Assembly: GCF_000737765.1 (NCBI RefSeq) | Contig: NZ_JPRI01000001.1 | Location: 620,001-684,000, forward strand | Origin: Chryseobacterium vrystaatense | GTDB lineage: Bacteria; Bacteroidota; Bacteroidia; Flavobacteriales; Weeksellaceae | Length of the DNA: 64,000 nt | Direction of reading: 5' to 3' | Program-made: the position numbers and the translations under genes | Part shown: piece by piece, positions 3,222 to 34,532 of the stretch | Numbering within the stretch: position 1 is the stretch's first letter | Layout: every line of letters starts with the position of its first letter | Notes under the pieces: generated by a model | The model's database searches: none | The model's input: only the letters and a program-made list of their open reading frames with translations | Told to the model about the DNA's origin: nothing

Positions 3222-3470
3222 TTATTATGGATAAAAATAATGTTTTTTTTTTACAGAATGTCTATAATAAGAAATTTAACGCATTTAACTTTTAATTCAC
3301 TCTAAAAATGAGGACGTGTAGCTTATTAGTTTATGTCCAATTGCATTTACCTTGCAAAATTACAACATTTCCCAAAGCGCCTTTTAAATTTTAGTGTAGT
3401 GTGGCATTCGGAAAGCGACTACTTATTAATTCGCATTACCTTATAGAATTTTCGCGCTAACTAATGTATT

Positions 3471-4211
3471 TTAGCAATTTCTATTGTAATTGACAAAAAT
3501 ACCCGGAACTCTTTTGGCGAGCATTGTTTTTCCGCTGCCCGGAGGTCCTATCAAAATAATGTTGTGCCCTCCCGCTGCGGCAACTTCCATGGCCCGCTTT
3601 GCGGTTTCCTGTCCTTTAACTTCAGAAAAATCAAATGGAAAATCGTTAATCCTTTCCTGAAATTCTTTTCTGGTATCTAACGTTACTTTTTTAATTGGTT
3701 TTCCTTCGTTAAAGAAATCGATGACTTCTTTCATATTTTCAGCTCCGTACACCTCAAGACCATCTACAATAGCTGCCTCTCTTGTATTCTGAAGGGGAAG
3801 TATAATTCCTTTGAAACCTTCTTCCTTTGCCTGAATGGCAATGGGAAGCACTCCTTTGACAGGTTGTAAACTTCCATCCAGAGACAGTTCGCCCATAATA
3901 ATATAATCCTGAATGTTTTCTGCCACAATCTGATCTGATGCTGCAAGAATTCCTATAGCTATGCTGAGATCGTAGGCAGCCCCTTCTTTCCTAAGGTCCG
4001 CAGGTGCCATATTAATGGTAATTTTTTTTCCCGGAATTTTATATCCCACATTTCTTAACGCTGCAGAGATCCGGTAGCTGCTTTCTTTAATGGCATTATC
4101 GGGAAGACCTACCAGGTGATATCCTACTCCTCCGGTATCTACATTAACCTCAATCGTAATGGTTTGTGCAGCTACCCCATGGATAGCACTGCCATAAATT
4201 TTTATTAACAT
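3471..4211 (-). pseudogene. YifB/ComM Mg-chelatase-like ATPase, truncated after Walker A
   Basis: The N-terminal ChlI-type domain (about residues 1-180: [20 protein letters not shown], AGxL-like [15 protein letters not shown]) is intact. It is followed by the start of the AAA+ domain with Walker A GPPGSGKT at about residue 222. The family is normally about 500 aa, and this frame ends at residue 246 with an unrelated tail, FVNYNRNC. Walker B, sensor motifs and the C-terminal domain are missing, so ATPase function must be lost unless the rest is supplied elsewhere. Family members assist branch migration in natural transformation. The break is the right boundary of the island at 1-3497. Confidence 0.85.
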
Positions 4212-4315
4212 GATCTGCGTGTTTTTGTAAAAATAAATAATATATTATTTCAAAATATCCTCATTAAAATTGACAGTTTTAAGTTTCATTATATATTTTA
4301 AAAAAAATATCAACA

Positions 4316-4361
4316 AAAAGACAAACCGATACAGAATGTTTCTGTACCGGCTTATCAGCTA
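4316..4361 (-). terminator. Hairpin terminator after the DUF6876 gene, copy 1 of a repeat
   Basis: An imperfect 10-bp stem (4326-4335 with 4341-4350, loop 5) is followed on the minus strand by a T-rich stretch (TTTGTCTTTTTG). A near-identical 45-bp copy lies at 7771-7816, also just 3' of a minus-strand gene. Confidence 0.6.
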
Positions 4362-4412
4362 TAAAAAAATTAAATTCTAATGTGTACTGTTATTGGTCTA
4401 TGACCCGGAGAT

Positions 4413-4778
4413 TTATTCTTCACAAGGCATCAGCAGGTTATTACCTATTTTACAGATCGTAAGGCTTGAAAAATAAAAGTCTTTGGCAGGCCCATTTATC
4501 TCTAACAACATCTCATCTTTCCTGTCGGATACAACAACTATAATTTCACCATCTTCATTTTTCAAAAGTTTCCATTTTTGGTATTTAACTGCGTTTAACT
4601 TTATACAGTTTTGAACCACAATATCCAAAAACCAATAGCAGTTCTCCTGTTCTGCCACATATAATATTCCTTCACTAACACTGATCTTTTCAGAGTATTC
4701 AATGAACATTTCGGCTTTGGAAAATTCGTTGTACAACTGATTTGCACAGTTCTCTATTTTCTTATTTTTTCTCATCAC
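4413..4778 (-). CDS. DUF6876-like protein (121 aa)
   Basis: The pattern DGxxYLAExxxxYWxxDI, then KWKL, then a terminal LLMPCE matches the layout I know for DUF6876 proteins. Here it reads EGILYVAEQENCYWFLDIV, QKWKLL and NLLMPCEE. The function of the family is unknown; members are small, soluble and often plasmid- or phage-borne. There is no signal peptide. It lies 178 bp downstream of the anti-sigma/barrel gene and upstream of a hairpin terminator, so it could be cotranscribed or independent. A start at codon 2 is equally possible. Confidence 0.62.
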   Translation of the reverse strand: MMRKNKKIENCANQLYNEFSKAEMFIEYSEKISVSEGILYVAEQENCYWFLDIVVQNCIKLNAVKYQKWKLLKNEDGEIIVVVSDRKDEMLLEINGPAKDFYFSSLTICKIGNNLLMPCEE

Positions 4779-4956
4779 GCTCTCATTTTAGCTCGGAAGA
4801 AACTTTTTTTGAGTAAAAAAAGCCACTTCAAAAAAATGAATGAAATGGCTCAAAAAAAAAATAATCCTAAATATTTAATATCATTTAATATCACATGGGT
4901 TTAATCAATTCCAAGACTTAATCTTCCAGCGTTTACAGTGAAAAATCAGCCTATTT

Positions 4957-6333
4957 TTATTGGATGGAATACCTTACACCGAATTCTAAATTCAGATTCA
5001 GTGGTTTTTCCCTGTAGATGGTTCTAATCTCACTTCCGTCATTAAAATTATATCTTAAGCTCGGCTCAAAATAAATCCCAAAATTTTTAAATAGTTTATA
5101 CTGAACTCCTCCTCCCGCATTCAACGACATTTGTAATGAGTTTACCGTTAGTTCTTCTGAAAAACTTTCCTTTATTTCATGATTAACTATATAATTTGTT
5201 TTCATTTTTCCAAGGATTGATTTTTCAATCTGGGCACCGGCACTTGCATAAGCAGATATATTTCCTTTCTGCCATATTCGATAATTTATCTGAACAGGAA
5301 TTCCTATATATTTGACGGTTTGCTCTCCTTTGATCATATTGGCTTCAGTTCCAGATAAGAGATCTGATGAAAGCTTTGAATAGGTCAGCCCTGTCGTCAC
5401 AGACCATTGATCATTGAGCTGGTAAGAAACAGATAATCCCAATTTTACAGGGAGCTTATGCCTTATATCTGTTTTTACATCTTCGTATCTGTTTCCTGCA
5501 AAGATTTCACCTAACGGATCTTCTTCTGTTTCCGCTCCACTGTCAGCCGGAATTTCAAGCTGTTGTCCGTTCATCATAACGTAGCCTTCCTGTTGATGGG
5601 AAGAAAGAGAAGAATTGGATGAAGGCGGCCCCGATATTAGACCCAAAATCCACTTGTGATTAAAATTGTTCCTGTTCTTATCTCCATCAGTCTGAGCCAG
5701 ATTTTCCTGGGAATAAGCTTCAGCAGTCAGAGAATCAAGACTGTATTTATCATTTATTTCTGAAACAGAAAAATGTCCAGCCATTAACGGTTCACTTATG
5801 TTATCATAGGAGTCCTTCGTTTCAACATCCTTCATGTTTACTTTTAGAGATTCATAAGATAAATCTTCTAATAGCTTTGTTTTCTTATTGGTCCTGATAT
5901 GAGAAAACACCTTTTCATTCGTTGTGCGAGCTTTATGGTTTACCTCTTTTTTATGAATATCAAAACTGAAAACAATAGCGTCCGTATTTAAGCTTCCTGA
6001 CAAAGAAGATGCCTGTACAGTCTTTTTTTGTGTTCTATTTCCCGTAAGGTTTTTAAAATCATCGTCCTGTATCTTTAGAAAGAATATAACAGAAACCAAA
6101 ACTGCGATTCCAGCAGCAATACTTAATGCACCTATTCTGTGTTTTAAATTCTTTTGATCATGCTTTTTGTCATCATTTTTCTCTGTCGAAGGTTGGTCAG
6201 GCATCAACGGAAAAACATTGTATTCTTCTTCCGGAAACAGTTCTTTTTCAATACTGAGCCAAAGGCCATCCGGCGGATCATCCTCATGACCTTCAAACTT
6301 ATTTTTTAGGTCGGCTAACCATTTATCTTTCAT
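4957..6333 (-). CDS. Anti-sigma-like protein fused to an outer membrane beta-barrel (458 aa), copy 1
   Basis: Residues 1-60 are a charged cytosolic segment (WLADLKNKFEGHEDDPPDGLW) typical of Bacteroidetes anti-sigma-like N-termini. A single membrane helix follows at about 67-87 (IGALSIAAGIAVLVSVIFFL), then a polar, low-complexity periplasmic linker to about 270. The C-terminal 190 residues are a PorT/OMP_b-brl-like beta-barrel (LGLSVSYQLNDQWSVTTGLTY), ending in an aromatic strand VRYSI. The start ATG overlaps the sigma gene's stop (ATGA, 6330-6333), so the two are translationally coupled. I infer that it holds the sigma factor inactive until an envelope signal arrives. Paralogue at 8849-10246. 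Confidence 0.8.
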   Translation of the reverse strand: MKDKWLADLKNKFEGHEDDPPDGLWLSIEKELFPEEEYNVFPLMPDQPSTEKNDDKKHDQKNLKHRIGALSIAAGIAVLVSVIFFLKIQDDDFKNLTGNRTQKKTVQASSLSGSLNTDAIVFSFDIHKKEVNHKARTTNEKVFSHIRTNKKTKLLEDLSYESLKVNMKDVETKDSYDNISEPLMAGHFSVSEINDKYSLDSLTAEAYSQENLAQTDGDKNRNNFNHKWILGLISGPPSSNSSLSSHQQEGYVMMNGQQLEIPADSGAETEEDPLGEIFAGNRYEDVKTDIRHKLPVKLGLSVSYQLNDQWSVTTGLTYSKLSSDLLSGTEANMIKGEQTVKYIGIPVQINYRIWQKGNISAYASAGAQIEKSILGKMKTNYIVNHEIKESFSEELTVNSLQMSLNAGGGVQYKLFKNFGIYFEPSLRYNFNDGSEIRTIYREKPLNLNLEFGVRYSIQ

Positions 6334-6899
6334 AGGGCCTCCTTTTTAAATTGTTTGTATGTATTAATTTCATGTACGAGTTTCCGTTTAGCCTTATGCA
6401 GTTGAGATGCCGAAGAACCTTCACTTATAGACAGTAATTGCGAAATCTCTTTATGGGATTTATTCTCAAATACATATAGATTAAAAACAACCCTGTACCC
6501 ATTGGGCAGCAATTTTATCATGGTCATAAGCTCCTCCATAGGAACATCTGACAGCTCGGGCTCTTCATCATCTTCCTTACCTATCATTTCCTCTTCCATT
6601 GTCGAAAACTCCATCTTTGAAAAGCTTCTTATATATTGCAGCACTTCATTAATAACAATGCGTATTATCCAGGCTTTTAAGGAACCCTTTCCCATATATT
6701 TAAAAGAATCGATGTGATGAAACATTTTAATAAAGCTGTTTTGAAGTATATCATGAATGTCATCATTTCCTTTCAGATATCTCCTGCATATGGACGTAAG
6801 CTCTCGTGAATAAGAATTATATAATTCTTTCCAGGCCGATTGTTCCTTTTTAACCAAACGCGTCAACAGTTGAATCTCTGGACTATCTTTTTCAGGCAT
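6330..6899 (-). CDS. ECF-type RNA polymerase sigma factor, copy 1
   Basis: The 189-residue size and two-domain layout are those of ECF sigma factors. Region 2 spans about residues 24-92, with the conserved DIHDILQNSFIKMF and the GSLKAWIIRIVINEVL segment. Region 4 spans about 124-176, with the helix-turn-helix SHKEISQLLSISEGSSASQL. It directs RNA polymerase to a small set of promoters and is expected to be held by the anti-sigma/barrel protein coded immediately downstream. A terminator at 6926-6960 separates it from the lipoprotein gene upstream. Paralogue at 10239-10805 with the same neighbours. Confidence 0.93.
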   Translation of the reverse strand: MPEKDSPEIQLLTRLVKKEQSAWKELYNSYSRELTSICRRYLKGNDDIHDILQNSFIKMFHHIDSFKYMGKGSLKAWIIRIVINEVLQYIRSFSKMEFSTMEEEMIGKEDDEEPELSDVPMEELMTMIKLLPNGYRVVFNLYVFENKSHKEISQLLSISEGSSASQLHKAKRKLVHEINTYKQFKKEAL

Positions 6900-6925
6900 T
6901 TAACGTATCCCAAATTTAATATGAG

Positions 6926-6960
6926 TAAAAAGGTGTGCTTTCCCAATTCAAGCACACCTG
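6926..6960 (-). terminator. Rho-independent terminator of the DUF4840-like gene
   Basis: A perfect 10-bp stem AGGTGTGCTT/AAGCACACCT (6931-6940 with 6950-6959) is followed on the minus strand by TTTTT. It lies 13 bp after the lipoprotein stop. Confidence 0.85.
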
Positions 6961-6972
6961 AACAATGTTTCC

Positions 6973-7569
6973 TTACGGCAGTTTCTTCAACATCGGAAAA
7001 TTATATTTTATTTTATCGTAGGGATTTACTGCGGTTCCCTCAACAGTTATTTTAGTGGCTTCCAGTTCGAAGTTTAGATTTTGAGTCTTTCCTTTTGTAA
7101 ACACTCCTTTTTTAGCTGGGACAAATGTTACAACTACTTTTTTACTCACCCCTTCTATTGGAACCTGAAGGGTCAGCTCCTTGGGAGAAAAAGCAAGTTC
7201 AACTTCTTTTTTTTCTTTATTCAGGGCCGAAGTATAATTTAGCTCATACTTAACTTTTCCAATAGCTGTTAAAGCCTGACCCGCTTTCACAGGATCACTA
7301 ATCACGGATGCAATGATCTCTTTCATTGGAAATTCTGTGAAGTTGATTATATTTTTCTGAGCACTGAAAATCACATTTGTTTCACCATTAACCGTTCCTT
7401 TTGATATAACAGCTTTTCCAGTATAATCGCCATTGACGTCTTCTATCTTTAGGGCATCGGGATTGGTTTTAGGTTTATCATCATCATCCCTGCAGCTTAT
7501 GATACTAAAAGTAAAACTTAGCAGGATGAATAACACGGATAAGGCTTTGAAGCTTACGAACTTTTTCAT
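6973..7569 (-). CDS. DUF4840-like lipoprotein, copy 1 (198 aa)
   Basis: The N-terminal signal sequence ends in the lipobox SIISC (Cys26), followed by an acidic RDDDDK stretch. Asp residues right after the lipid cysteine are common in Bacteroidetes lipoproteins. The rest is beta-rich (NGDYTGKAVISKG, ITVEGTAVNPYDKIKYNFP), as in the DUF4840 group of uncharacterised Bacteroidetes lipoproteins. It has a clear paralogue at 10902-11483 that shares INFTEFPMKEI-type and ALTAIGKVKY segments. It lies directly upstream of an ECF sigma/anti-sigma pair in both copies, and it carries the repeated upstream motif, so it may be a target or sensor of that sigma factor (inference). Confidence 0.75.
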   Translation of the reverse strand: MKKFVSFKALSVLFILLSFTFSIISCRDDDDKPKTNPDALKIEDVNGDYTGKAVISKGTVNGETNVIFSAQKNIINFTEFPMKEIIASVISDPVKAGQALTAIGKVKYELNYTSALNKEKKEVELAFSPKELTLQVPIEGVSKKVVVTFVPAKKGVFTKGKTQNLNFELEATKITVEGTAVNPYDKIKYNFPMLKKLP

Positions 7570-7607
7570 TTTAAATTTGAATTAATTATTGATTAAAAAT
7601 ATTTACT

Positions 7608-7630
7608 TTGAGTACTCATTTATAAAATGC
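7608..7630 (-). promoter_or_regulatory. Conserved GAGTACTC motif upstream of lipoprotein copy 1
   Basis: On the minus strand this reads GCATTTTATAAATGAGTACTC and then CAA, about 39 bp before the start codon. Twenty of 22 positions match the element at 11518-11540 in front of the paralogue. It contains the perfect palindrome GAGTACTC at 7610-7617. I infer an ECF-sigma-dependent promoter or operator. Confidence 0.55.
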
Positions 7631-7770
7631 AGCAATTGTAAATCCTTGCCTGAAAAATTCAATAAAAAACATAATACACTGATTATCAATATCATTATTT
7701 TATAAATAAAACATCATATTTGTTTTAAATCATCATCTTGTAAGAAGTTTTGCAACAGGATTTTATAAAC

Positions 7771-7816
7771 AAAAAGACAAACCGGTACAGACTGTCTCTA
7801 TACCGGCTTATCAGCG
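7771..7816 (-). terminator. Hairpin terminator after the T9SS protein gene, copy 2 of a repeat
   Basis: The stem ccggtacaga/tctataccgg (7782-7791 with 7797-7806) is followed on the minus strand by TTTGTCTTTTTG. It is about 85 percent identical to 4316-4361, including flanking bases outside the stem. Confidence 0.6.
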
Positions 7817-25999: not shown

Positions 26000-28954
26000 T
26001 TAAAAGTTGAATTTAAATCCTAGAGAAACACTGGATAACAGCGAGTATTTGTACGGATCAGACACCCCCGTTAATGAAGCTCGGGGATCATATCCTTTTC
26101 TCTTGGACCATAAGTAAAGATTGTTTCCTGTGACATACACTTTCAGCCCTGATAATCCGGCCTGCTGGGCAAAACCATCCGGCAGCTGATAAGACAGGGT
26201 AACATCCTGAAGGCTTATATAATCTGACTTGATCAGATAAAGCGTAGAATGTCCATTCTGATTGGTGGAGGTAAGATCTACCCTTGGCAATTCTGCATTT
26301 GGGTTTTCCGGTGTCCAGGTTTTACTTAAATCAGTTGAATAATTGGAAGCATAGGTATCTGAATGGAATAAAGATCTGTAGATATCATCATACCCATATC
26401 CTCCAAACTGGTAGGCAAAGTTCACCGCAAGGCTGATCCCTTTATACGTGAAATCTGTCCCGAACCCACCATATACCTTCGGAATCGCTGATTTTCCGGT
26501 ATTGTAATCCGTTGCTTCCTTATAATTAGCTGTAATAGTGGTTTCCTCCTTTTGCGTATCTGGATTGACCGCGGTTCTGTACCATTGTGCATCTCCGTTT
26601 TCAGGATTTACTCCTGCAAATTTTTTCAGATAGTAGGTATATCGGTCGCCTCCCTCGGACAGAATAAACAAACCACTCACAAGACCTGTACTTCTTTGCT
26701 CGGCAGGCAGCCTGGTAATTTCGTTTTTATAATGGGTTGCATTTCCATACACATTCCACTTGAACTGGTCTGCACGGAGAATCTCTACATTCAGATTAGC
26801 CTGAACTCCTTTATTGATCATATCTCCGATATTCCCATATTTTACAAACGAACCGGCGTTGGATGGAGGTAATGGCAGTGCATAGATCATATCTGATACT
26901 TTTCTTTCAAAGTAATCTGCATTCAGGTTGATTCTGTTTTGGAAAAGTGCAATTTCGAAACCTGCATTCAGGTTTTTGGAAGTTTCCCATTTCAGGTCTT
27001 TATTTCCCTGTTTTTTTAGAGAGAGAACTGGTTTGTCATCTCCAAAATTGTTGATTCCATAGATATCCTGATACGCATAATAGTCTCTTGTAGAGCCATC
27101 CAACAGAATATTGTCATTTCCCTGCTGACCGTAAGAAGCTTTTAACCTCAAGGAATTAATGACCGTGTTGTCTTTAAGGAAGTCTTCCTTAGCTACATTC
27201 CAGGCCACTCCTAAACCATAAAAATTCCCCCATCTACTCTCCGGAGAAAATACAGAGGAGCCATCTCTCCGGATATTGGCATTAAAGAAATATTTACCGT
27301 CGTAGTTATAGAGCAACCTTGTGAAATACCCTTCTACAGCATATTCATAGCCATTTCCTGACAGATCTGTTATTCTCACCGCATTATCAAATGATAAAGA
27401 ATTGGGGAGTAAAAGCTGCTGCTTGGAGCCGGAAAAACCATCGTTTTTTATCTTGTTCAGTTCATGTCCGGCCAGAATATTGAAGCTGTGGTTACCCAAT
27501 TTCTTTTGATAAGTCAGCAATTGCTGATGGTTTAAAGTATATTTAAAAATGGACCCCATATTAAGATTCCCTCCAACAGACGAAGAAGTACCTCCCAAAG
27601 TATTTCCGAACTGGAGATTTTTTGTATTTTCCAGATAGCCTCCGAAATTATAGGTGAAGTCCAGGCCCTTTATGATTTCATAGTTCAAACCCAGGTTTAT
27701 ATTCGTTATATTATTGACGGTCTGAGATTTATCATATTGAAGATTACCAACCGGATTTTCGAAAACAGCATAAGATCTTGTGGCTCCGTTTGGCCCCTGT
27801 CCATCACCATAATCGTACAATATCTGTCCTGTAGTATCATAAAGAAGCTGGAAATTATCATCCCTCAGAAAAACAGGATAAAAAGGTGCTATATTTCTGG
27901 CAAACTGAAAAGGATTTGAAAATCCGCCCGATTCTCCAAAATCCTGCTTGCTGTAGGTGTAGGACACACTGCTGGTTAGTTTCAATTTTGGAGTAATCGC
28001 ATAATCCAGATTTGATCTTATTCCAAATCTTTCAAATCCTGAGGCTATAAGATACCCCTCATCATCAAGATAATTCAATGATGTATACGATTTTACCTGA
28101 TCACTGTTAGCTGTGATTCCAACACTGGCTTCTCTTCTAAATCCGGGTTTAAAAAGCAGCTTTTTCCAGTTATCTTGATACAAAAGTTTAGCTTCCGGAT
28201 TAAATACTCCATCCTGCCCGATCATTTTGGCAAAAGGTACGCTGTAAGCATTATATCCCAACTTATTCAGGGCTGTAATTCCGACATCGTGAGGGCTCGT
28301 TCCGGAAGATACTGCTCCCGGCTGTTTTAATCTTGCCACTTCACCAATTCTTGCACGGTTATAATATGCTGTATAATAATCCTGTGGCGAAGAATACACC
28401 GAATAATCCTGAATAGATCTGAAGTTAACTCCTGTTTTCACATCTGCCTCTATATGCAGACCTTTAGATTTACCTCTTTTGGTATTTACGATAATAACCC
28501 CGTTAGCTCCTCTTGAACCATACAAAGCATTGGAAGAAGCATCCTCCAGAAAAGAAATACTTTCGATATCCGTTCCGGGAATGCTGTTAAGGTTTCCGTT
28601 ATAAGGAATGCCGTCCAATACGATCAGCGGGTCGCTTGATGCATTGATGGAGCCTATCCCTCTCATTCTTATCGTGGGCTGTGAGCCGGGCTGCCCGGAA
28701 GATATTACCTGTACTCCGGCAACCTTACCTCCAATCCCCTGAAGTATATTTCCATTTTGAAGATTGGCCAGGTCTTTTGTTTTCAGAGACTGTACAGATC
28801 CTGTTATTTCTTCTTTTTTCTGCTTCCCAAAAGCTACAACCACCACTTCCTGTATGGAATGCTCTTTGGAAAGACTGTCCTTTTTCTGTGCAAAGCCAAA
28901 TTCTGCAAATAAAATCATGGCCAATGCACCAATTTTACATTGTTTTCTCCTCAT
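26000..28954 (-). CDS. SusC/RagA-family TonB-linked outer membrane transporter
   Basis: Signal peptide to about residue 22 (GFAQ), then a TonB-box-like VVVVAFGKQKK with no carboxypeptidase-like N-terminal extension. The plug contains the SusC signature (IVLDGIPYNGNLNSIPGTDIESISFLEDASSNALYGSRGANGVII, residues about 118-162). A 22-strand barrel ends in aromatic LGFKFNF. At 984 residues it is a normal family size. It imports ligand delivered by the SusD protein, using TonB energy. Upstream lie a Cys-rich short ORF (29151-29309), a terminator-like hairpin (29016-29046) and an Rrf2-type operator, so expression is probably tied to cysteine or sulfur supply. Confidence 0.95.
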   Translation of the reverse strand: MRRKQCKIGALAMILFAEFGFAQKKDSLSKEHSIQEVVVVAFGKQKKEEITGSVQSLKTKDLANLQNGNILQGIGGKVAGVQVISSGQPGSQPTIRMRGIGSINASSDPLIVLDGIPYNGNLNSIPGTDIESISFLEDASSNALYGSRGANGVIIVNTKRGKSKGLHIEADVKTGVNFRSIQDYSVYSSPQDYYTAYYNRARIGEVARLKQPGAVSSGTSPHDVGITALNKLGYNAYSVPFAKMIGQDGVFNPEAKLLYQDNWKKLLFKPGFRREASVGITANSDQVKSYTSLNYLDDEGYLIASGFERFGIRSNLDYAITPKLKLTSSVSYTYSKQDFGESGGFSNPFQFARNIAPFYPVFLRDDNFQLLYDTTGQILYDYGDGQGPNGATRSYAVFENPVGNLQYDKSQTVNNITNINLGLNYEIIKGLDFTYNFGGYLENTKNLQFGNTLGGTSSSVGGNLNMGSIFKYTLNHQQLLTYQKKLGNHSFNILAGHELNKIKNDGFSGSKQQLLLPNSLSFDNAVRITDLSGNGYEYAVEGYFTRLLYNYDGKYFFNANIRRDGSSVFSPESRWGNFYGLGVAWNVAKEDFLKDNTVINSLRLKASYGQQGNDNILLDGSTRDYYAYQDIYGINNFGDDKPVLSLKKQGNKDLKWETSKNLNAGFEIALFQNRINLNADYFERKVSDMIYALPLPPSNAGSFVKYGNIGDMINKGVQANLNVEILRADQFKWNVYGNATHYKNEITRLPAEQRSTGLVSGLFILSEGGDRYTYYLKKFAGVNPENGDAQWYRTAVNPDTQKEETTITANYKEATDYNTGKSAIPKVYGGFGTDFTYKGISLAVNFAYQFGGYGYDDIYRSLFHSDTYASNYSTDLSKTWTPENPNAELPRVDLTSTNQNGHSTLYLIKSDYISLQDVTLSYQLPDGFAQQAGLSGLKVYVTGNNLYLWSKRKGYDPRASLTGVSDPYKYSLLSSVSLGFKFNF

Positions 28955-29015
28955 TATACTAATTTTTGTTTTAAAATTGAATTGTGTATTACCGTGATTC
29001 CTCCAGTTAAGACAT

Positions 29016-29046
29016 AAAAATCCCCTCCTCCCTTGTCAGGGAGATT
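29016..29046 (-). terminator. Terminator-like hairpin between the leader ORF and susC (candidate attenuator)
   Basis: On the minus strand CTCCC TGACAA GGGAG (29043-29028) is followed after GAGGGGA by TTTTT. Alternatively AATCTCC (29046-29040) pairs with GGGGATT ending at the T-run. Both pairings use the same 5' arm. It lies 105 bp past the leader stop and 62 bp before the susC start. Confidence 0.6.
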
Positions 29047-29150
29047 ATCAGACAGAAAATTTCGAAACAGTCAGGATGGCTATCTGCCTTAAAAAGAATT
29101 TGAACTTATTTTAATTTAATTCCTACAGTAATTTTTTTGTTGTCAGAAGT

Positions 29151-29309
29151 TTATGCATGCATCATCATTTTGCACATCGGAAAGTCAAAACACAGGTTGC
29201 GAACCATAAGATCGTGTTGTGAAAGGCAGCCCTCTGCGCAACAGATTTTCTGGGCAGGGATAGCAGCCATAGGGATGCATAAGTAAGAATTGAATGAATT
29301 TTTATTCAT
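29151..29309 (-). CDS. Cysteine-rich 52-residue leader ORF upstream of susC
   Basis: ATG at 29309-29307 runs in frame to TAA at 29153-29151. The product has a KICCAEGCLS core, then a RNLCFDFPMCKMMMHA tail and an early YLCIP, giving six cysteines in 52 residues, of which two are adjacent. The stretch is more GC-rich than the AT-rich spacers on both sides, which supports coding. There is no signal peptide or membrane helix. A promoter-like TACTTTTG element lies 32 bp upstream, and a terminator-like hairpin lies between it and susC. I read it as a regulatory leader whose Cys codons report cysteine supply. A free-standing metal- or redox-binding peptide is the alternative. Confidence 0.6.
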   Translation of the reverse strand: MNKNSFNSYLCIPMAAIPAQKICCAEGCLSQHDLMVRNLCFDFPMCKMMMHA

Positions 29310-29340
29310 GAGAATAAATTTTAACTTTTTTTAACTGTGT

Positions 29341-29369
29341 CAAAAGTATTTAATTATTCACGAATCCAA
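29341..29369 (-). promoter_or_regulatory. Candidate promoter of the leader-susCD unit
   Basis: The minus strand has TTG, 18 bp, then TACTTTTG (29348-29341), fitting the Bacteroidetes TTG-N17-23-TAnnTTTG form. The start of the leader ORF is 32 bp downstream. Confidence 0.5.
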
Positions 29370-29399
29370 TCATATGGTCACATGAGATAAATCATATAA

Positions 29400-29418
29400 G
29401 TCCACTAAATTAGTAGAC
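29400..29418. promoter_or_regulatory. Rrf2-type operator upstream of the susCD leader
   Basis: GTCCACTAAATTAGTAGAC is a 19-bp palindrome with one mismatch around a central A, flanked by ATA and TAT-like ends. It resembles IscR type-1 Rrf2 sites and shares the core ACYAAATTAGTAG with the operator before cysH (53783-53805). It lies about 30 bp upstream of the promoter's -33. The rest of 29419-29689 shows no gene. Confidence 0.65.
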
Positions 29419-29656
29419 TATTAAAAATACCTGAATTTTTTGTGAATTAAACGGTCATGTATTACTCAAAAAAGCAACGAAAAGTTATTTAACTTCTCCA
29501 AAACTGTACCGCTATATCCATCATATCCTTTCTAAAGGTGCATTGCATAAGCATTGTGTTCGGTTCATATATCTTACTGAAAGTCAAAACAAATGTTGTA
29601 AATTTATTACACGTAAAAACAGTGTTTTCCCCCTTTCGCAGAGTTGAGCAGTTATC

Positions 29657-29664
29657 TAATTTTG
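29657..29664 (+). promoter_or_regulatory. -7 element of the lipoprotein/two-component operon
   Basis: TAATTTTG (TAnnTTTG) lies 26 bp before the lipoprotein start at 29690. A TTG at about 29643 is too close for a standard -33. Confidence 0.4.
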
Positions 29665-29689
29665 TTTTATAAAATTAAAAACCATAAAA

Positions 29690-30253
29690 ATGAAAACTAC
29701 TATCCTGTTTAAAAATCTAAGACCGCTCTTTGCGGTACTTATTTTAAGTTTTTGCATGTTAAGCTGCACCCGCTGCTCTGAACCCCCTAAAGAACCTGTA
29801 AGTGACAGTTATAAAAAGAAACTGATCAGCTACCGTGAAGGCCGGGTACTTTATGATGAATATTCAAGAACCAACAATGCAATTCTTACAAAATACAGAA
29901 ACGGAGAACCTGATTCACGTTGGTACTGGTTTTCTGTAGAAGACATGGAGGGATATCTTCACTATGTAAAAGAAACAGCCAGAAAGCAGAAACTGAAAAA
30001 CCCGGGAATCAGAATTTATATGGGAAAATACCCGATGAATCATCCTAAAGGTAAAATGGCAAAACCAGAATATGCAGGCTATCAGACAATATTTATAGTC
30101 CCAACTGCCCAAAACCGAAAAAGCGAAAGCACAACCACAATATCCAGAACCGTAACCTCAACCGATGAGAATAAAAATGTAACGGAAATGGAAGTTCTGA
30201 ATATGACCAATCTGGCACCTCCCCCAAAAGTGTCGACCGTAGAGAACCCATAA
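29690..30253 (+). CDS. Predicted lipoprotein of a two-component operon
   Basis: A signal sequence (residues 1-25) ends in the lipobox MLSC (Cys26), followed by TRCSEPPKEP. The 187-residue body contains a central mixed segment (RWYWFSVEDMEGYLHYVKETA, NPGIRIYMGKYP) and a Ser/Thr-rich tail. I do not recognise a named family. The layout suggests a small globular domain plus a disordered C-terminus. It is the first gene of a run with a 7-TM protein, a NarL-type kinase and a response regulator, so it may be part of signal sensing at the envelope (inference). Confidence 0.8.
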   Translation: MKTTILFKNLRPLFAVLILSFCMLSCTRCSEPPKEPVSDSYKKKLISYREGRVLYDEYSRTNNAILTKYRNGEPDSRWYWFSVEDMEGYLHYVKETARKQKLKNPGIRIYMGKYPMNHPKGKMAKPEYAGYQTIFIVPTAQNRKSESTTTISRTVTSTDENKNVTEMEVLNMTNLAPPPKVSTVENP

Positions 30254-30264
30254 AAGATAAAGCC

Positions 30265-30909
30265 ATGAACTGGAATATAGAAATCGGGAAACAGATATCC
30301 ATGGTGGTATCCGTCACGGTAATGGCTCTAATGACGGTCAAATACAAAAAAATAGGGCGAGAGAATTTGTTCTTTATTGTTGGATATATCCTGCTTTCAC
30401 TGATCGATATTTTTTGCTATTTCTATTTCAACGCTACCAACCGGTCTACTGAAACGTTTTATGTGATTGGCTTTTTAATGATTGCTTTTTTTCTGTATCT
30501 GCTGTATTATTTTCAATTACTCTACTGGCCGATTTTAAAAAAGATTCAGTGTGTTCTTTTAATCCTGTTCGTTATCAATATTCTGGTGATGTTTTATATA
30601 GAGGACGATTTGCTGCATCATTTTTCTTTTAATATGCTGTACGTTGATATTCTTCTGCTCATGTTTTCCATTATTTTATTTTTATATCAGACTTTTAATT
30701 CTGACAAAATACTGGAGCTGAACAATTATCTGCCTTTCTGGATCTCGGTTTCTCTGTTAATACTTTTTATCGGGAGTATTCCCATCCTGTATTTCAGGAC
30801 GACAGTGTCACAGTCTATCTATTTTTTCATCTTATTTATGTTGAATCTTATCAGTAATGGAATACTCATGCTGGGATTAATTTGGAACAAACAGGAAAGA
30901 CTTAGATAA
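30265..30909 (+). CDS. Seven-helix membrane protein
   Basis: About seven hydrophobic helices are seen in 214 residues (near 8-26, 35-55, 66-86, 93-111, 122-143, 155-176 and 182-205), joined by short loops. This resembles a sensory 7-TM module that has been split from its kinase. There is no catalytic motif. It starts 11 bp after the lipoprotein gene and ends 14 bp before the kinase gene. The kinase itself has one N-terminal helix, so I infer that this protein is the membrane sensor that works with it. It could also be a small transporter. The family is not recognised. Confidence 0.8.
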   Translation: MNWNIEIGKQISMVVSVTVMALMTVKYKKIGRENLFFIVGYILLSLIDIFCYFYFNATNRSTETFYVIGFLMIAFFLYLLYYFQLLYWPILKKIQCVLLILFVINILVMFYIEDDLLHHFSFNMLYVDILLLMFSIILFLYQTFNSDKILELNNYLPFWISVSLLILFIGSIPILYFRTTVSQSIYFFILFMLNLISNGILMLGLIWNKQERLR

Positions 30910-30923
30910 AGCACCTTAGCATT

Positions 30924-31694
30924 ATGGAAGAAAATAATTTAGTTATTACTTTTACCATTACTTTACTTATTGTTGTTCTCACAATGATCTTTATCTATGT
31001 GGTCTTTATCAAAAAGAAAACAACACTTCTGCTTGAGCAGAAAGAAAAAGATATGCGTTTTGAAAAAGAACTGGCTACTTCACAGGTGGAAATAAAGGAG
31101 CAGACCCTGAACTATATCGGACAGGAGCTGCATGATGATGTGGGGCAAAAACTATCGGTAGTCCGATTGCGGCAGAATCAACTTATTTCCAAGCTGAAAA
31201 ACGCAGAAAAAGAAGAACTCAACGAACTCAGTGAACTGCTCGGCGAATGTATTCAGGATATCAGAAATTTATCCAAAACACTGATCACCGAGCAGATCAT
31301 TCATTTCGGACTGACGGAATCTATAGAAAGAGAGGTCAAAAGGATTCAGAAATTAAAATTGTTAAAAATAGAATTCATTACCCAAAAACAGGATATTGAT
31401 ATCTCGCCCAAACATGGATTAATTCTCTTCCGGATTATTCAGGAAAGCATTAATAACATTTTAAAACATTCCAGGGCCAAAAATGTATCTATAAGGCTGG
31501 AAGATGATCAGAATACTTTACGGATCAACATTTCAGACAATGGTAAAGGATTTATTACCACCAAAATACAGGACGGTTCAGGACTTAAAAACATGGAACT
31601 GAGAGCTAAACTTATTCATGCCGAATTTTCTATACAGTCGGAACTTAATAAAGGAACGCAGACCTCAATAACCTATTACAAATACATGATATGA
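30924..31694 (+). CDS. NarL-type (HisKA_3) sensor histidine kinase
   Basis: One membrane helix (about 8-29) is followed by a coiled coil. The HisKA_3 dimerisation motif is ELHDDVGQKLSVVRL with phospho-acceptor His70. The HATPase domain has the N-box QESINNILKHS and the G-box SDNGKGF then GSGLKNMELRA. There is no sensor domain in the protein itself. It probably receives its signal from the preceding lipoprotein and 7-TM protein. It overlaps the response regulator by 4 bp (ATGA). The likely output includes the metacaspase and protease genes downstream, but no regulator site has been shown there. Confidence 0.93.
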   Translation: MEENNLVITFTITLLIVVLTMIFIYVVFIKKKTTLLLEQKEKDMRFEKELATSQVEIKEQTLNYIGQELHDDVGQKLSVVRLRQNQLISKLKNAEKEELNELSELLGECIQDIRNLSKTLITEQIIHFGLTESIEREVKRIQKLKLLKIEFITQKQDIDISPKHGLILFRIIQESINNILKHSRAKNVSIRLEDDQNTLRINISDNGKGFITTKIQDGSGLKNMELRAKLIHAEFSIQSELNKGTQTSITYYKYMI

Positions 31695-32335: not shown

Positions 32336-32556
32336 TCTTCAATCATCATCGTCCGAAATCATTCATAACTCAATCATTGATCCGGTAGATTTTACAATCT
32401 ATCGGATTTTTGTTTTCATACGATCCATTAAATCTTTCAAAAATTCCCCAGTTCTTAAATCAGAAAGGGTGTTTTACCTACCACATAATTAGTCTTTTAC
32501 CTCTGTTTTGGCTGTCTTTAATAATGGAATTTTGTCCTGTCAAACTAAACCATGAA

Positions 32557-32604
32557 GGCCGAACCCGAAAAGCCGAAACAGAGTAGGGAAAATTTAAAAA
32601 CTAA
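32557..32604 (+). repeat. Repeated leader element before the metacaspase gene, copy 1
   Basis: GGCCGAACCCGAAAAGCC, six bases, then GAGTAGGGAAAA, ending 5 bp before the ATG. A close copy precedes the protease gene (33464-33513). GGC and GCC at the ends of the first block can pair. It may be an RNA regulatory element. Confidence 0.6.
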
Positions 32605-32609
32605 TCGAA

Positions 32610-33455
32610 ATGAAAAAAGCACTAGTAGTAGGAATCAATGACTATGCCCCCATCGGATCAGGAGGACCAGACTTAAACGGCTGTGTAAATGATGCCAGAG
32701 ACATGGCCAACACACTCGTCATTTGTGGTTTTGCTCCGGCAAATATTAAAATTCTCACCAATCAGAATGCCAAAAGAAGCAATATATTAAATTACCTTAA
32801 AACACTGGTGAACAGCAGTGTAAAAGGAGATTCCCTGGTCTTCTATTATTCAGGACACGGAACAAGAGTGGCTAACATTGGAGCAGATCTGGAAATAGAT
32901 GGTTTAGACGAAGCCATTTGCCCACATGATTATGCAAGTGCAGGAGTCATCCGTGATGATGATTTCAAAGCTGTACTCAGCAAGCTGAAAGCAGGGGTGA
33001 ATCTGGAAGTTATTTTTGACTGCTGTCACTCCGGAACAGGAACAAGAAAATTGGATCTGGGACTTGATTTAGAACTTTCTTATGAAGCACCCCGCTTTAT
33101 TCCGCCTATGCTCGAAGATGAATTCTATATGACCTACGCCAGCGAAATACAGTCCTCCAAAAGTTCAAAAAAGACTACAACAATGACCAAAGCTTTGGTT
33201 CCTGTTGTCGGAATGAATCATACATTATGGGCTGCATCCAAAGACAATCAGGTTTCCATGGAAGGAAATATGAGTGGCCAGATAAGGGGTTACTTCACTT
33301 ATCATTTCTGTAAAATACTGCGGGCAACCAACGGTAATATCGTAAGAAAAACACTCGACAAACAAATCGCGATGGCATTGGCTGCCATGGGCGCTGCCCA
33401 AATCAACCAGACAGAAAGCATCACTACGGAGTTTTCTCAAAAAATATTTTCATAA
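32610..33455 (+). CDS. Metacaspase-type peptidase (C14 caspase fold)
   Basis: The p20-like domain fills the N-terminal half: KKALVVGINDYAP, then the catalytic His83 in VFYYSGHGTRV and catalytic Cys139 in IFDCCHSGTG. DGLDEAICPHDY carries the acidic substrate pocket. There is no signal peptide and no extra sensor or death-fold domain, so it is a compact cytosolic 281-residue type-I-like metacaspase. Family members cleave after Arg or Lys and are implicated in stress or cell death. It lies 66 bp upstream of a serine protease gene with a shared leader element, so the two probably act together, perhaps by one cleaving the other (inference). Confidence 0.93.
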   Translation: MKKALVVGINDYAPIGSGGPDLNGCVNDARDMANTLVICGFAPANIKILTNQNAKRSNILNYLKTLVNSSVKGDSLVFYYSGHGTRVANIGADLEIDGLDEAICPHDYASAGVIRDDDFKAVLSKLKAGVNLEVIFDCCHSGTGTRKLDLGLDLELSYEAPRFIPPMLEDEFYMTYASEIQSSKSSKKTTTMTKALVPVVGMNHTLWAASKDNQVSMEGNMSGQIRGYFTYHFCKILRATNGNIVRKTLDKQIAMALAAMGAAQINQTESITTEFSQKIFS

Positions 33456-33463
33456 AAATCACT

Positions 33464-33513
33464 GGCGGAATCCGAAAAGCCATCCAAAGAGTAGGAAAAA
33501 CAGATTAAAAACC
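33464..33513 (+). repeat. Repeated leader element before the protease gene, copy 2
   Basis: GGCGGAATCCGAAAAGCC, then AGAGTAGGAAAAA and a TTAAAAACC tail, about 80 percent identical to 32557-32604 and at the same distance from a start codon. Confidence 0.6.
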
Positions 33514-33521
33514 AAATCATC

Positions 33522-34532
33522 ATGTCTAAAACTGAAACTAACAAACCTATGACGGCTGAAGAAGTATCAAGACTTAAAACCGTTAAAGCAAAATCAGCTG
33601 AAAAATTGGCGAACGCCGAAAAACTAACTAACCAGGGACCTGCCATGGAAACCATTGACGGACGGTCTTTCCCTAAAGGAATGAAATCAATCGGAATGCC
33701 TGCCAACGAAAAATCTGCAGAAGGTAAAGCAATCGAAACCGATCACTTCTATCCTACCCATTCAGATTTTGAATACCAGCCCAAATTAGAGGCTAAAAAA
33801 GACCGCAAACCAAAATTCATTGACAGAGAATCTTTCCTAACCACAGAAGGGGTAAAAACTATATTCGGTCCTGATCAGAGAAAAGTATATAATTCTACAG
33901 CATACCCATGGCGATGCGTTGGAAAAGTAGAAAGTGCATTAGGCTCAGGAAGCGGAGTGATGATAGGTCCGAGACACCTTCTTACCTGCGCTCATATCGT
34001 AGACTGGAAACCTAATAACAGTACAGGCTGGCTAAAATTTACACCAATGTATTATAACGGAAGTGCGCCGTATGGAAGTGCATGGGGAACTCTGACTTAT
34101 TATAAATACAAAGTGGCGGGACCTACGATCGATTCAACAGAAATTCAATATGATTATGTGGTTATTGTCTTAGACAGACCTATCGGAAACAGCACAGGCT
34201 GGATGGGTGCGAAATCCTACACCGATGCATGGGACGGAAAACCTTATTGGACTCATGCGGGTTATCCGGGGGATTTAACGGGTGGACAGAGACCTACTTA
34301 TCAAACAGACATTGCCTTAGACGGTGATTTCTGGAGTGCTGATGACAATGAAAGCATGAGCCATAAAGCAGATATCTGGCCGGGACAAAGCGGAGGTCCT
34401 TTCTGGGGATACTGGGATGGTGCTCCTTACGCTGTAGCTACCCAAAGCGCCCATAACCCGAGTGAAAACTTTGCGAGTGGCGGTTCAGATCTTGTCAACC
34501 TTGTTATAAAAGCACGAAACGAACATCCTTAA
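33522..34532 (+). CDS. Trypsin/V8-like serine protease with N-terminal pro-region
   Basis: The catalytic triad is visible: His158 in LLTCAHIVDW, Asp211 in QYDYVVIVLD, and Ser290 in PGQSGGPFWG. The chymotrypsin-like core begins near FGPDQRKVYNSTAYPWRCVG (about 115-133). Residues 1-110 are polar and lysine-rich with no signal peptide, and look like a pro-segment or linker. A basic site just before VYN (DQRK) could be cut by a metacaspase that prefers Arg/Lys, such as the neighbour upstream; this is untested. Secretion, if any, would need another route. A terminator follows at 34552-34586. Confidence 0.92.
   Translation: MSKTETNKPMTAEEVSRLKTVKAKSAEKLANAEKLTNQGPAMETIDGRSFPKGMKSIGMPANEKSAEGKAIETDHFYPTHSDFEYQPKLEAKKDRKPKFIDRESFLTTEGVKTIFGPDQRKVYNSTAYPWRCVGKVESALGSGSGVMIGPRHLLTCAHIVDWKPNNSTGWLKFTPMYYNGSAPYGSAWGTLTYYKYKVAGPTIDSTEIQYDYVVIVLDRPIGNSTGWMGAKSYTDAWDGKPYWTHAGYPGDLTGGQRPTYQTDIALDGDFWSADDNESMSHKADIWPGQSGGPFWGYWDGAPYAVATQSAHNPSENFASGGSDLVNLVIKARNEHP

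Follow-up and report, generated by a model that had tools for sequence, protein, structure and literature searches.

A short leader ORF ahead of one susCD pair

The window analysed here is a 64,000-nucleotide stretch of the Chryseobacterium vrystaatense genome (contig NZ_JPRI01000001.1, positions 620,001 to 684,000), and window coordinates are counted from its first letter. On the minus strand a short open reading frame (ORF), the leader, lies between a promoter element and the genes of an outer-membrane importer:

29341-29348, minus strand: promoter -7 element TACTTTTG, of the Bacteroidetes sigma-A type TAnnTTTG
29309-29151, minus strand: leader ORF of 52 codons plus stop, with six Cys and seven Met codons including the start; conserved, with in-frame indels
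28954-26000, minus strand: susC, encoding a 984-residue SusC/RagA TonB-linked outer-membrane transporter (TIGR04056, 622.8 bits, above the cut-off; Pfam Plug and barrel domains)
25990-24530, minus strand: susD, encoding a 486-residue SusD-family lipoprotein (SusD-like_3 and SusD_RagB) that follows SusC in a conserved unit

A gene for a SusC TonB-dependent transporter followed by one for a SusD lipoprotein is the arrangement that marks a SusCD operon. The 52-residue leader peptide (MNKNSFNSYLCIPMAAIPAQKICCAEGCLSQHDLMVRNLCFDFPMCKMMMHA) carries cysteines at positions 11, 23, 24, 28, 40, and 46, and 196 nt separate its stop codon from the SusC ATG at 28954. A first-pass annotation had described an ORF of 52 codons, six of them Cys, followed by a GC-rich hairpin with a T-run and by susC, and this layout was confirmed. 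Across orthologues the leader ranges from 48 to 53 codons and the untranslated spacer from 177 to 207 nt (57 loci). The leader peptide matched no Pfam or NCBIfam family, and no Rfam family matched the leader locus at gathering score, or to an E value of 1 over positions 28900-29450.

The comparisons below draw on 60 distinct leader-plus-spacer sequences (L024, L050, and L122 among them), on 61 loci made up of these 60 and the most divergent member, L107, and on a 57-sequence composite that omits L024, L050, and L122 and was used for the parsimony, terminator, gap-run, codon 31/40, and hairpin T counts. They indicate that the leader is very likely translated. Gap runs within it were either 3 bases (76) or 6 bases (56) long, with no other lengths, and those in the spacer were mostly of 1 (430) and 2 (142) bases (57 sequences). 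Stop codons occur in both other forward frames of all 57 leaders, and the TAnnTTTG box, given as the sigma-A consensus for Flavobacterium psychrophilum in the available excerpts of PMC9723704, precedes the leader ATG in all 56 orthologues examined. It is because of these three features, the in-frame gap runs, the stopped alternative frames, and the promoter box, that we judge the leader to be translated. With a transcript start assumed 5 nt past the box, the RNA would begin 23-28 nt ahead of the leader ATG. The locus thus has, as judged by comparison, the short translated ORF upstream of a regulated gene that is characteristic of attenuators.

The leader is confined to one genus and travels with one SusC. 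With tblastn at E < 1e-3, 38 of the 98 genomes of the genus, counting the window's own, each yielded a single homologue. In a profile search, 56 of the 296 genomes of the family gave matches with E values no higher than 8.7e-12, every one in the window's genus; the weaker matches in ten more, at E 0.011-0.093, resemble noise. All 31 named leader loci are from Chryseobacterium. The leader and a SusC orthologue occur in exactly the same 38 of the 98 genus genomes. These orthologues are 71-93% identical to the window SusC (its own copy aside), one copy, in G063, is broken, and two further genomes pass the SusC search threshold solely via a paralogue at 45-47% identity. When the window and the 31 named loci were compared, SusC followed the leader in 30 of 32 and SusD was present in 31 of 32; the other neighbours vary, and beyond SusCD no gene, sulfur-related or otherwise, is conserved beside the operon. 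This genome has 17 SusC genes above the TIGR04056 cut-off, 16 of which could be read upstream (the region ahead of L091 was not included) for ATG-started ORFs of at least 12 codons within 450 nt. Only the window's susC has such a leader, and no Met/Cys-rich-ended leader precedes the 15 other readable SusC genes. Likewise, none precedes four SusC paralogues (45-47% identity) in other genomes, of which L137 was covered for 177 nt upstream.

Two loci depart from this pattern. In Chryseobacterium candidae (L044, 10001-11000) the leader precedes a mere 130-residue SusC remnant without SusD, reflecting a deletion or an assembly fault; we count this exception against the leader being a susCD regulator. 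In Chryseobacterium sp. E1 (L038; G063:C1 4116866-4118806) 13 stops break SusC behind an intact, in-frame leader. The assembly is listed as 75% complete, and sequencing error is a possible cause of the break.

A small RNA element was noted elsewhere in the window. Two DUF805b RNA motifs (RF02914) at 32555-32589 and 33462-33497, plus strand, scoring 42.9 and 42.3 bits, sit 20 and 24 nt ahead of a caspase-like gene (32610-33455, plus strand) and a putative serine protease gene (33522-34532, labelled by eye from its GQSGGP motif). DUF805b is thus a repeated element ahead of adjacent protease-type genes. The caspase-like product scores below the cut-off for the NCBIfam EACC1-associated caspase type and has a PADLOC caspase match at E 3.9e-22, and the gene is possibly of the defence type.

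Constraint on the sulfur codons of the leader

The codons that bear most on the leader's function lie at its end:

29160-29195, minus strand: sulfur-codon cluster, codons 39-50, LCFDFPMCKMMM; group consensus MCFD.MMC.MMM

Positions follow the alignment, whose position 48 corresponds to residue 46 of the window's leader. Of the 60 distinct sequences, 38 have cysteine at position 11, 38 at 23, 42 at 24, all 60 at 40, and 54 at 48, while Cys 28 is kept in 14. Cys 48 is replaced in 6 of the 60 and is also missing from L107, which lies outside that set. An adjacent Cys-Cys pair is present in 23 of 57 leaders. Parsimony reconstruction on the 57 sequences placed 12, 14, and 12 replacements at Cys 11, 23, and 24, in the same range as neighbouring codons. 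By the same measure Cys 40 had no replacements, Cys 48 had four along with three silent changes, and Met 39, 44, 47, 50, 51, and 52 had 3, 3, 1, 2, 1, and 4 replacement events; for comparison, codons 49 and 53 had 12 and 15. Codons 10-29 accumulated 323 replacement and 88 silent events, that is, about 7.0 events per replacement site (over ~46 sites) against 6.3 per silent site, and we therefore see no amino-acid constraint there. The protected set thus comprises two Cys and five or six Met codons close before the stop codon, and these comparisons give the leader a signature of clustered Met and Cys codons at its end rather than of Cys codons in series.

Composition points the same way. The last 14 codons hold 6-10 Cys or Met codons in 60 of 60 sequences, and exactly 8 in 37; in the window's own leader, Leu and Pro replace Met at two positions. 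Met codons after the start average 6.8 per leader, compared with 0.65 and 0.93 in the other two frames (60 distinct sequences). Leaders average 4.6 Cys against 1.4 in shuffled sequences (60 distinct sequences), and the +1 and +2 frames are also rich in Cys codons (3.25 and 1.80), so that the Cys excess is only partly frame-specific. Two points govern how the protected positions are read. Silent changes per silent site number 2.6 in codons 43-53 and 1.45 in codons 6-9, compared with 6.3 in codons 10-29, and the low value at the ORF end makes a base-level constraint possible there. Moreover, Met has a single codon, so a conserved Met is indistinguishable from conserved ATG bases.

These results divide what the first-pass annotation had proposed about cysteine. 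Attenuators carry a conserved cluster of codons for the amino acid they sense, and the Met/Cys end cluster is such a cluster, while Cys 11, 23, and 24 are not part of one. Selection on sulfur codons agrees in part with the proposed sensing through Cys codons, and the suggested comparison across Chryseobacterium recovered Cys 40, Cys 48, and the downstream hairpin (recognisable in 52 of 57); the remaining Cys codons, including the adjacent pair, drift. A sensor built on a Cys-only series is not supported, as Met accounts for most of the protected codons near the stop and Cys for two of them.

RNA structure of the leader and the spacer

The leader and the spacer contain the following predicted or conserved RNA elements:

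29303-29316, minus strand: small hairpin P0 predicted at the leader start codon, TATTC-TCAT-GAATA; all 39 rows pair, without variation
29283-29295, minus strand: predicted 5' arm of a long-range pairing, leader codons 5-9, from pairing counts; few silent changes in codons 6-9
29214-29222, minus strand: 5' arm of hairpin P1, codons 30-32, TCACAACAC, from the consensus fold and pairing counts
29185-29193, minus strand: 3' arm of P1, from the last base of codon 39 to codon 42, GTGTTTTGA, containing Cys codon 40
29114-29132, minus strand: conserved post-stop box ATTACTGTAGGAATTAAAT, which holds the long-range 3' arm (29126-29114)
29044-29027, minus strand: hairpin T, TCTCCCT-GACA-AGGGAGG, 7 bp and GC-rich; all or part of the top-ranking local hairpin in 52 of 57 orthologues
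29020-29016, minus strand: T-run TTTTT, beginning 6 nt past the hairpin T stem

In the consensus fold a hairpin, P1, forms within the ORF by pairing of UCACARCAY (codons 30-32) with GUGYUUUGA (codons 39 to 42). Its arms pair in 98.7% of cells in 39 rows, compared with 17-52% when the arms are slid against each other. Of its eight pairs one shows change on both sides and three never vary (39 rows). At the third positions of codons 31 and 40 the pair is G-C in 33 sequences, A-U in 21, and G-U in 3, with no mismatch among the 57, and parsimony places seven changes of this pair on the tree. Locus by locus, all eight pairs are present in 53 of 61 and seven in 7; the six pairs apparent in L027 are an artefact of the motif finder, which took SRH instead of SQH. 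P1 is kept even in L107. A covariation test against a tree-based null, with about 14,100 eligible pairs, gave the P1 pair E = 0.55 and second place. The pair at the top of that test, between codon positions 4.3 and 7.1, belongs to no evident helix and was taken as a lineage effect. Because the codons for Ser 30, His 32, Cys 40, and Asp/Glu 42 sit in the P1 arms, they are likely conserved in part at the RNA level.

At the start of the leader, TATTCTCATGAATA (29303-29316, minus strand) is invariant in 39 non-redundant loci and may fold into a hairpin of 5 bp that encloses the start codon. Its invariance means that it gives no covariation evidence.

Farther apart, pairing between codons 5-9 and the post-stop box is a possibility suggested by the alignment. 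At least 11 of 13 positions pair in 53 of 61 loci, compared with a mean of 8.9 for shuffled arms. The exceptions are L003 and L007, with 10 of 13, and L107 and L111-L115, in which the helix is weak or absent; the post-stop box itself is missing in L107. Changes on both sides affect one pair, in three sequences. The box has at least 22 exact matches and, among the matches listed, all adjoin a leader. Two further proposals for this box were rejected. A pattern allowing up to two mismatches occurs in 171 of 296 genomes, which would have suggested sharing with other genes, but a reversed control also matches many. A hairpin A joining the box to the GGCTTcTTTAATCC segment seemed plausible in many rows, but on inspection its sides do not covary in the window's own clade, and its folding probability is low, at 0.07-0.25.

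In the spacer, the best hairpin of the stretch 80-160 averages -9.3 kcal/mol compared with -5.4 for shuffled sequences; its energy is lower than the mean of the shuffles in every one of 57 orthologues and lower than all 40 shuffles in only 12. This hairpin corresponds to T in 49 sequences by script and in L002, L115, and L123 by reading; in L007, L008, L010, L015, and L026 the best hairpin differs from T and still uses the GGAGG arm. Strict criteria for an intrinsic terminator were satisfied in 2 of 57 sequences against 1.8 in shuffles, which is chance level, and a terminator scan of 28000-31000 listed none at hairpin T and its T-run. Relaxed criteria, with loops of up to 16, were satisfied in 21 of 57 against 3.6 in shuffles (two-base blocks were permuted in both cases). 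Hairpin T may be a weak terminator; the first-pass description of a terminator-like hairpin agrees with a recognisable hairpin and with the excess of the relaxed form, and the strict form is at chance level. The spacer also has C-rich, G-poor stretches, with C/G ratios of 3.9 in the 80-100 bin and 4.0 in the 160-180 bin, and G-rich stretches with ratios of 0.5 and 0.7 in the 120-160 bins. This profile is compatible with Rho, without being evidence for it.

We also folded the RNA with a ribosome modelled as absent or at 12 positions, using every third of 56 sequences (19 in total, L115 left out). Hairpin T formed with a probability of 0.84-0.89 in all 13 states. P1 was abolished by a ribosome at codons 28-44 and re-formed (0.50-0.66) with the ribosome at codons 48-50, and the long-range helix was clearly lowered only by a ribosome near codons 6-16 and abolished at 6-11. 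An antiterminator pairing an upstream CTCCT box with AGGAGG was considered and rejected; 98.2% of cells pair, but shuffles do equally well and no pair changes on both sides. In this model, then, no mutually exclusive antiterminator is set by ribosome position. A terminator/antiterminator switch is not supported, and the earlier proposal that ribosome position favours read-through finds no counterpart, as no modelled position alters hairpin T in the 19 sequences.

Candidate roles of the leader and related systems

We favour, at a probability of roughly 0.45, the reading that the leader is a cis-acting peptide for the susC-susD operon that senses the supply of Met and Cys together and not of Cys alone. 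A shortage of charged Met- or Cys-tRNA would halt the ribosome in the end cluster, where it would adjoin the start of the spacer and favour susC expression, perhaps through interference with Rho, through an effect on hairpin T, or at the level of translation; under good supply the ribosome would leave at the stop codon and susC expression would fall. In textbook attenuators a 1:2 hairpin pauses the polymerase and keeps it in step with the ribosome, and P1 could be such a pause hairpin. The folding model suggests that a ribosome stopped at codons 39-44 would keep P1 open and that one stopped later need not. From the original attenuator proposal this reading retains the leader peptide, the tie to SusCD, and the downstream hairpin; it adds the conserved promoter, and it drops Cys-only sensing and the terminator switch.

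By sequence, SusC is nearest to solved SusC homologues and to RagA, which do not fix its substrate. A possible link to sulfur comes from elsewhere in the genome, where three SAM riboswitches (RF00162) score above gathering. The one at contig 1 308353-308449 (64.3 bits) precedes another SusC-SusD pair:

L133 (contig 1 300500-313500 of the same genome), minus strand: second SusCD pair, SusC 4837-7776 and SusD 3325-4818

Another precedes a TonB-dependent receptor gene (L138; Plug domain; first 467 residues covered), and the third a MetX-like gene (below the NCBIfam cut-offs). Two of the three thus lead outer-membrane transporter genes, which supports a sulfur theme for the susCD leader described here. 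A broader and tentative reading is that Chryseobacterium has a set of outer-membrane importers under sulfur-amino-acid control through two unrelated RNA devices, SAM riboswitches and a Met/Cys peptide leader with a coding-sequence hairpin. SusCD pairs are thought of as glycan or peptide importers, and glycan-responsive sensors, sigma/anti-sigma pairs, or small RNAs are the usual explanations of how they are regulated. If the reading is correct, SusCD pairs would include dedicated sulfur-scavenging members, and a nutrient status independent of the substrate could gate a SusCD, giving a handle on this importer. No earlier case of a SusCD controlled by a leader peptide would then have been described; we found none among the open-licence papers surveyed.

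The main alternative, which we regard as unlikely, is a nascent arrest peptide that would sense copper (or another thiophilic metal, or thiol stress) on the ribosome through its Met/Cys/His-rich end and control the TonB-dependent importer in this way. Met, Cys, and His are typical Cu(I) ligands, and the protected Met and Cys residues together with His 32 match these ligand types; Cys 48, in addition, is replaced less than its neighbours while changing silently. A precedent is CruR of Bordetella, which in the available text of PMC9973294 precedes a TonB-dependent transporter with a 162-nt spacer, compared with 177-207 nt here (57 loci). A metal site is, however, hard to reconcile with a distance between the two conserved cysteines that varies through in-frame indels and with the replacement of Cys 48 in a tenth of the sequences, and His 32 and Cys 40 lie in the RNA arms of P1. 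The leader also has no Pfam or NCBIfam match and no proline-rich end of the CutF/CruR kind, and no other gene is conserved alongside the operon.

It is improbable that the device is driven by RNA, with translation itself opening and closing P1 and the long-range helix so as to read general translation or initiation, the Met and Cys codons being incidental or kept at the nucleotide level. Such a leader would account for the retention of P1 in the most divergent member, for the scarcity of silent changes in codons 6-9 and 43-53, and for the placement of Ser 30, His 32, Cys 40, and Asp/Glu 42 within RNA arms; it would also fit the pairing of codons 5-9 with the post-stop box, which in the model a ribosome near codons 6-16 lowers. 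It leaves aside Met 44, 47, 50, 51, and 52 and Cys 48, which are protected outside both P1 and the long-range arms, and it depends on a long-range pairing that is weakened or lost in L107 and L111-L115 and reduced in L003 and L007.

A classical Cys-specific transcription attenuator with mutually exclusive terminator and antiterminator is highly improbable. The enrichment of Cys codons, the hairpin with its T-rich tract, and the excess of relaxed terminators all agree with one, but most Cys codons drift and Met codons dominate the protected set, no antiterminator follows ribosome position in the folding model, and the alternative partner of the GGAGG arm does not covary. Least probable of all is a small functional protein or peptide precursor merely co-transcribed with susCD: the ORF is conserved and keeps its frame, and SusCD importers are said in the excerpted text of PMC12636315 to co-occur with chryseobasin-type peptide clusters, but codons 10-29 show no amino-acid constraint, neither a modification enzyme nor any other gene is conserved nearby beyond SusCD, the peptide matches no family, and the CPxCGxG motif given in that excerpt is absent from the leader.

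Several known systems resemble a Met/Cys-sensing leader in part. The SAM riboswitch (RF00162) is a sulfur-responsive element before another SusCD pair of this genome; it is an aptamer, whereas the element here is a peptide, at a locus with no Rfam match. CruR and CutF are likewise upstream ORFs containing Cys; in the excerpts of PMC9973294, CruR acts through Rho, and a long spacer separates it from the TonB-dependent transporter that it controls. The leader here differs in lacking the proline-rich stall end and in having a Met-rich end, and with no Pfam or NCBIfam match and a Met/Cys-rich end it falls outside that family. Before cysS of Rhodobacterales, uORFC-8-2 has Cys codons within an RNA stem, but according to the portion of PMC8632094 at hand its tandem Cys codons are usually at 14-15 and a terminator is present, whereas here single Cys codons lie near the ORF end and a transporter follows. 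The cys leaders of Mycobacterium and its relatives share sulfur codons near the stop; they have no conserved terminator, and the leader here no conserved strict one, and their authors suggested Rho (PMC1262725); as far as the same partial text goes, those leaders have runs of Cys only, precede a cys operon, and belong to another phylum, in contrast to the mostly Met codons and the coding-region hairpin described here.

The closest likeness is to the amino-acid attenuators, for which clues were reported upstream of biosynthesis operons in Flavobacterium psychrophilum (PMC9723704, excerpts); leader-like short ORFs were also reported in long 5' UTRs of Bacteroides thetaiotaomicron (PMC7366714, excerpts). 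The locus shares with them a short ORF, regulatory codons near its end, a coding-region hairpin, and an untranslated spacer with a hairpin before the gene. It differs in having a SusCD importer downstream, a mixed Met/Cys cluster, and neither a conserved strict terminator nor an antiterminator switch. Since the leader resembles these attenuators but failed the antiterminator test, we set it apart as a variant of the class and not as a member.
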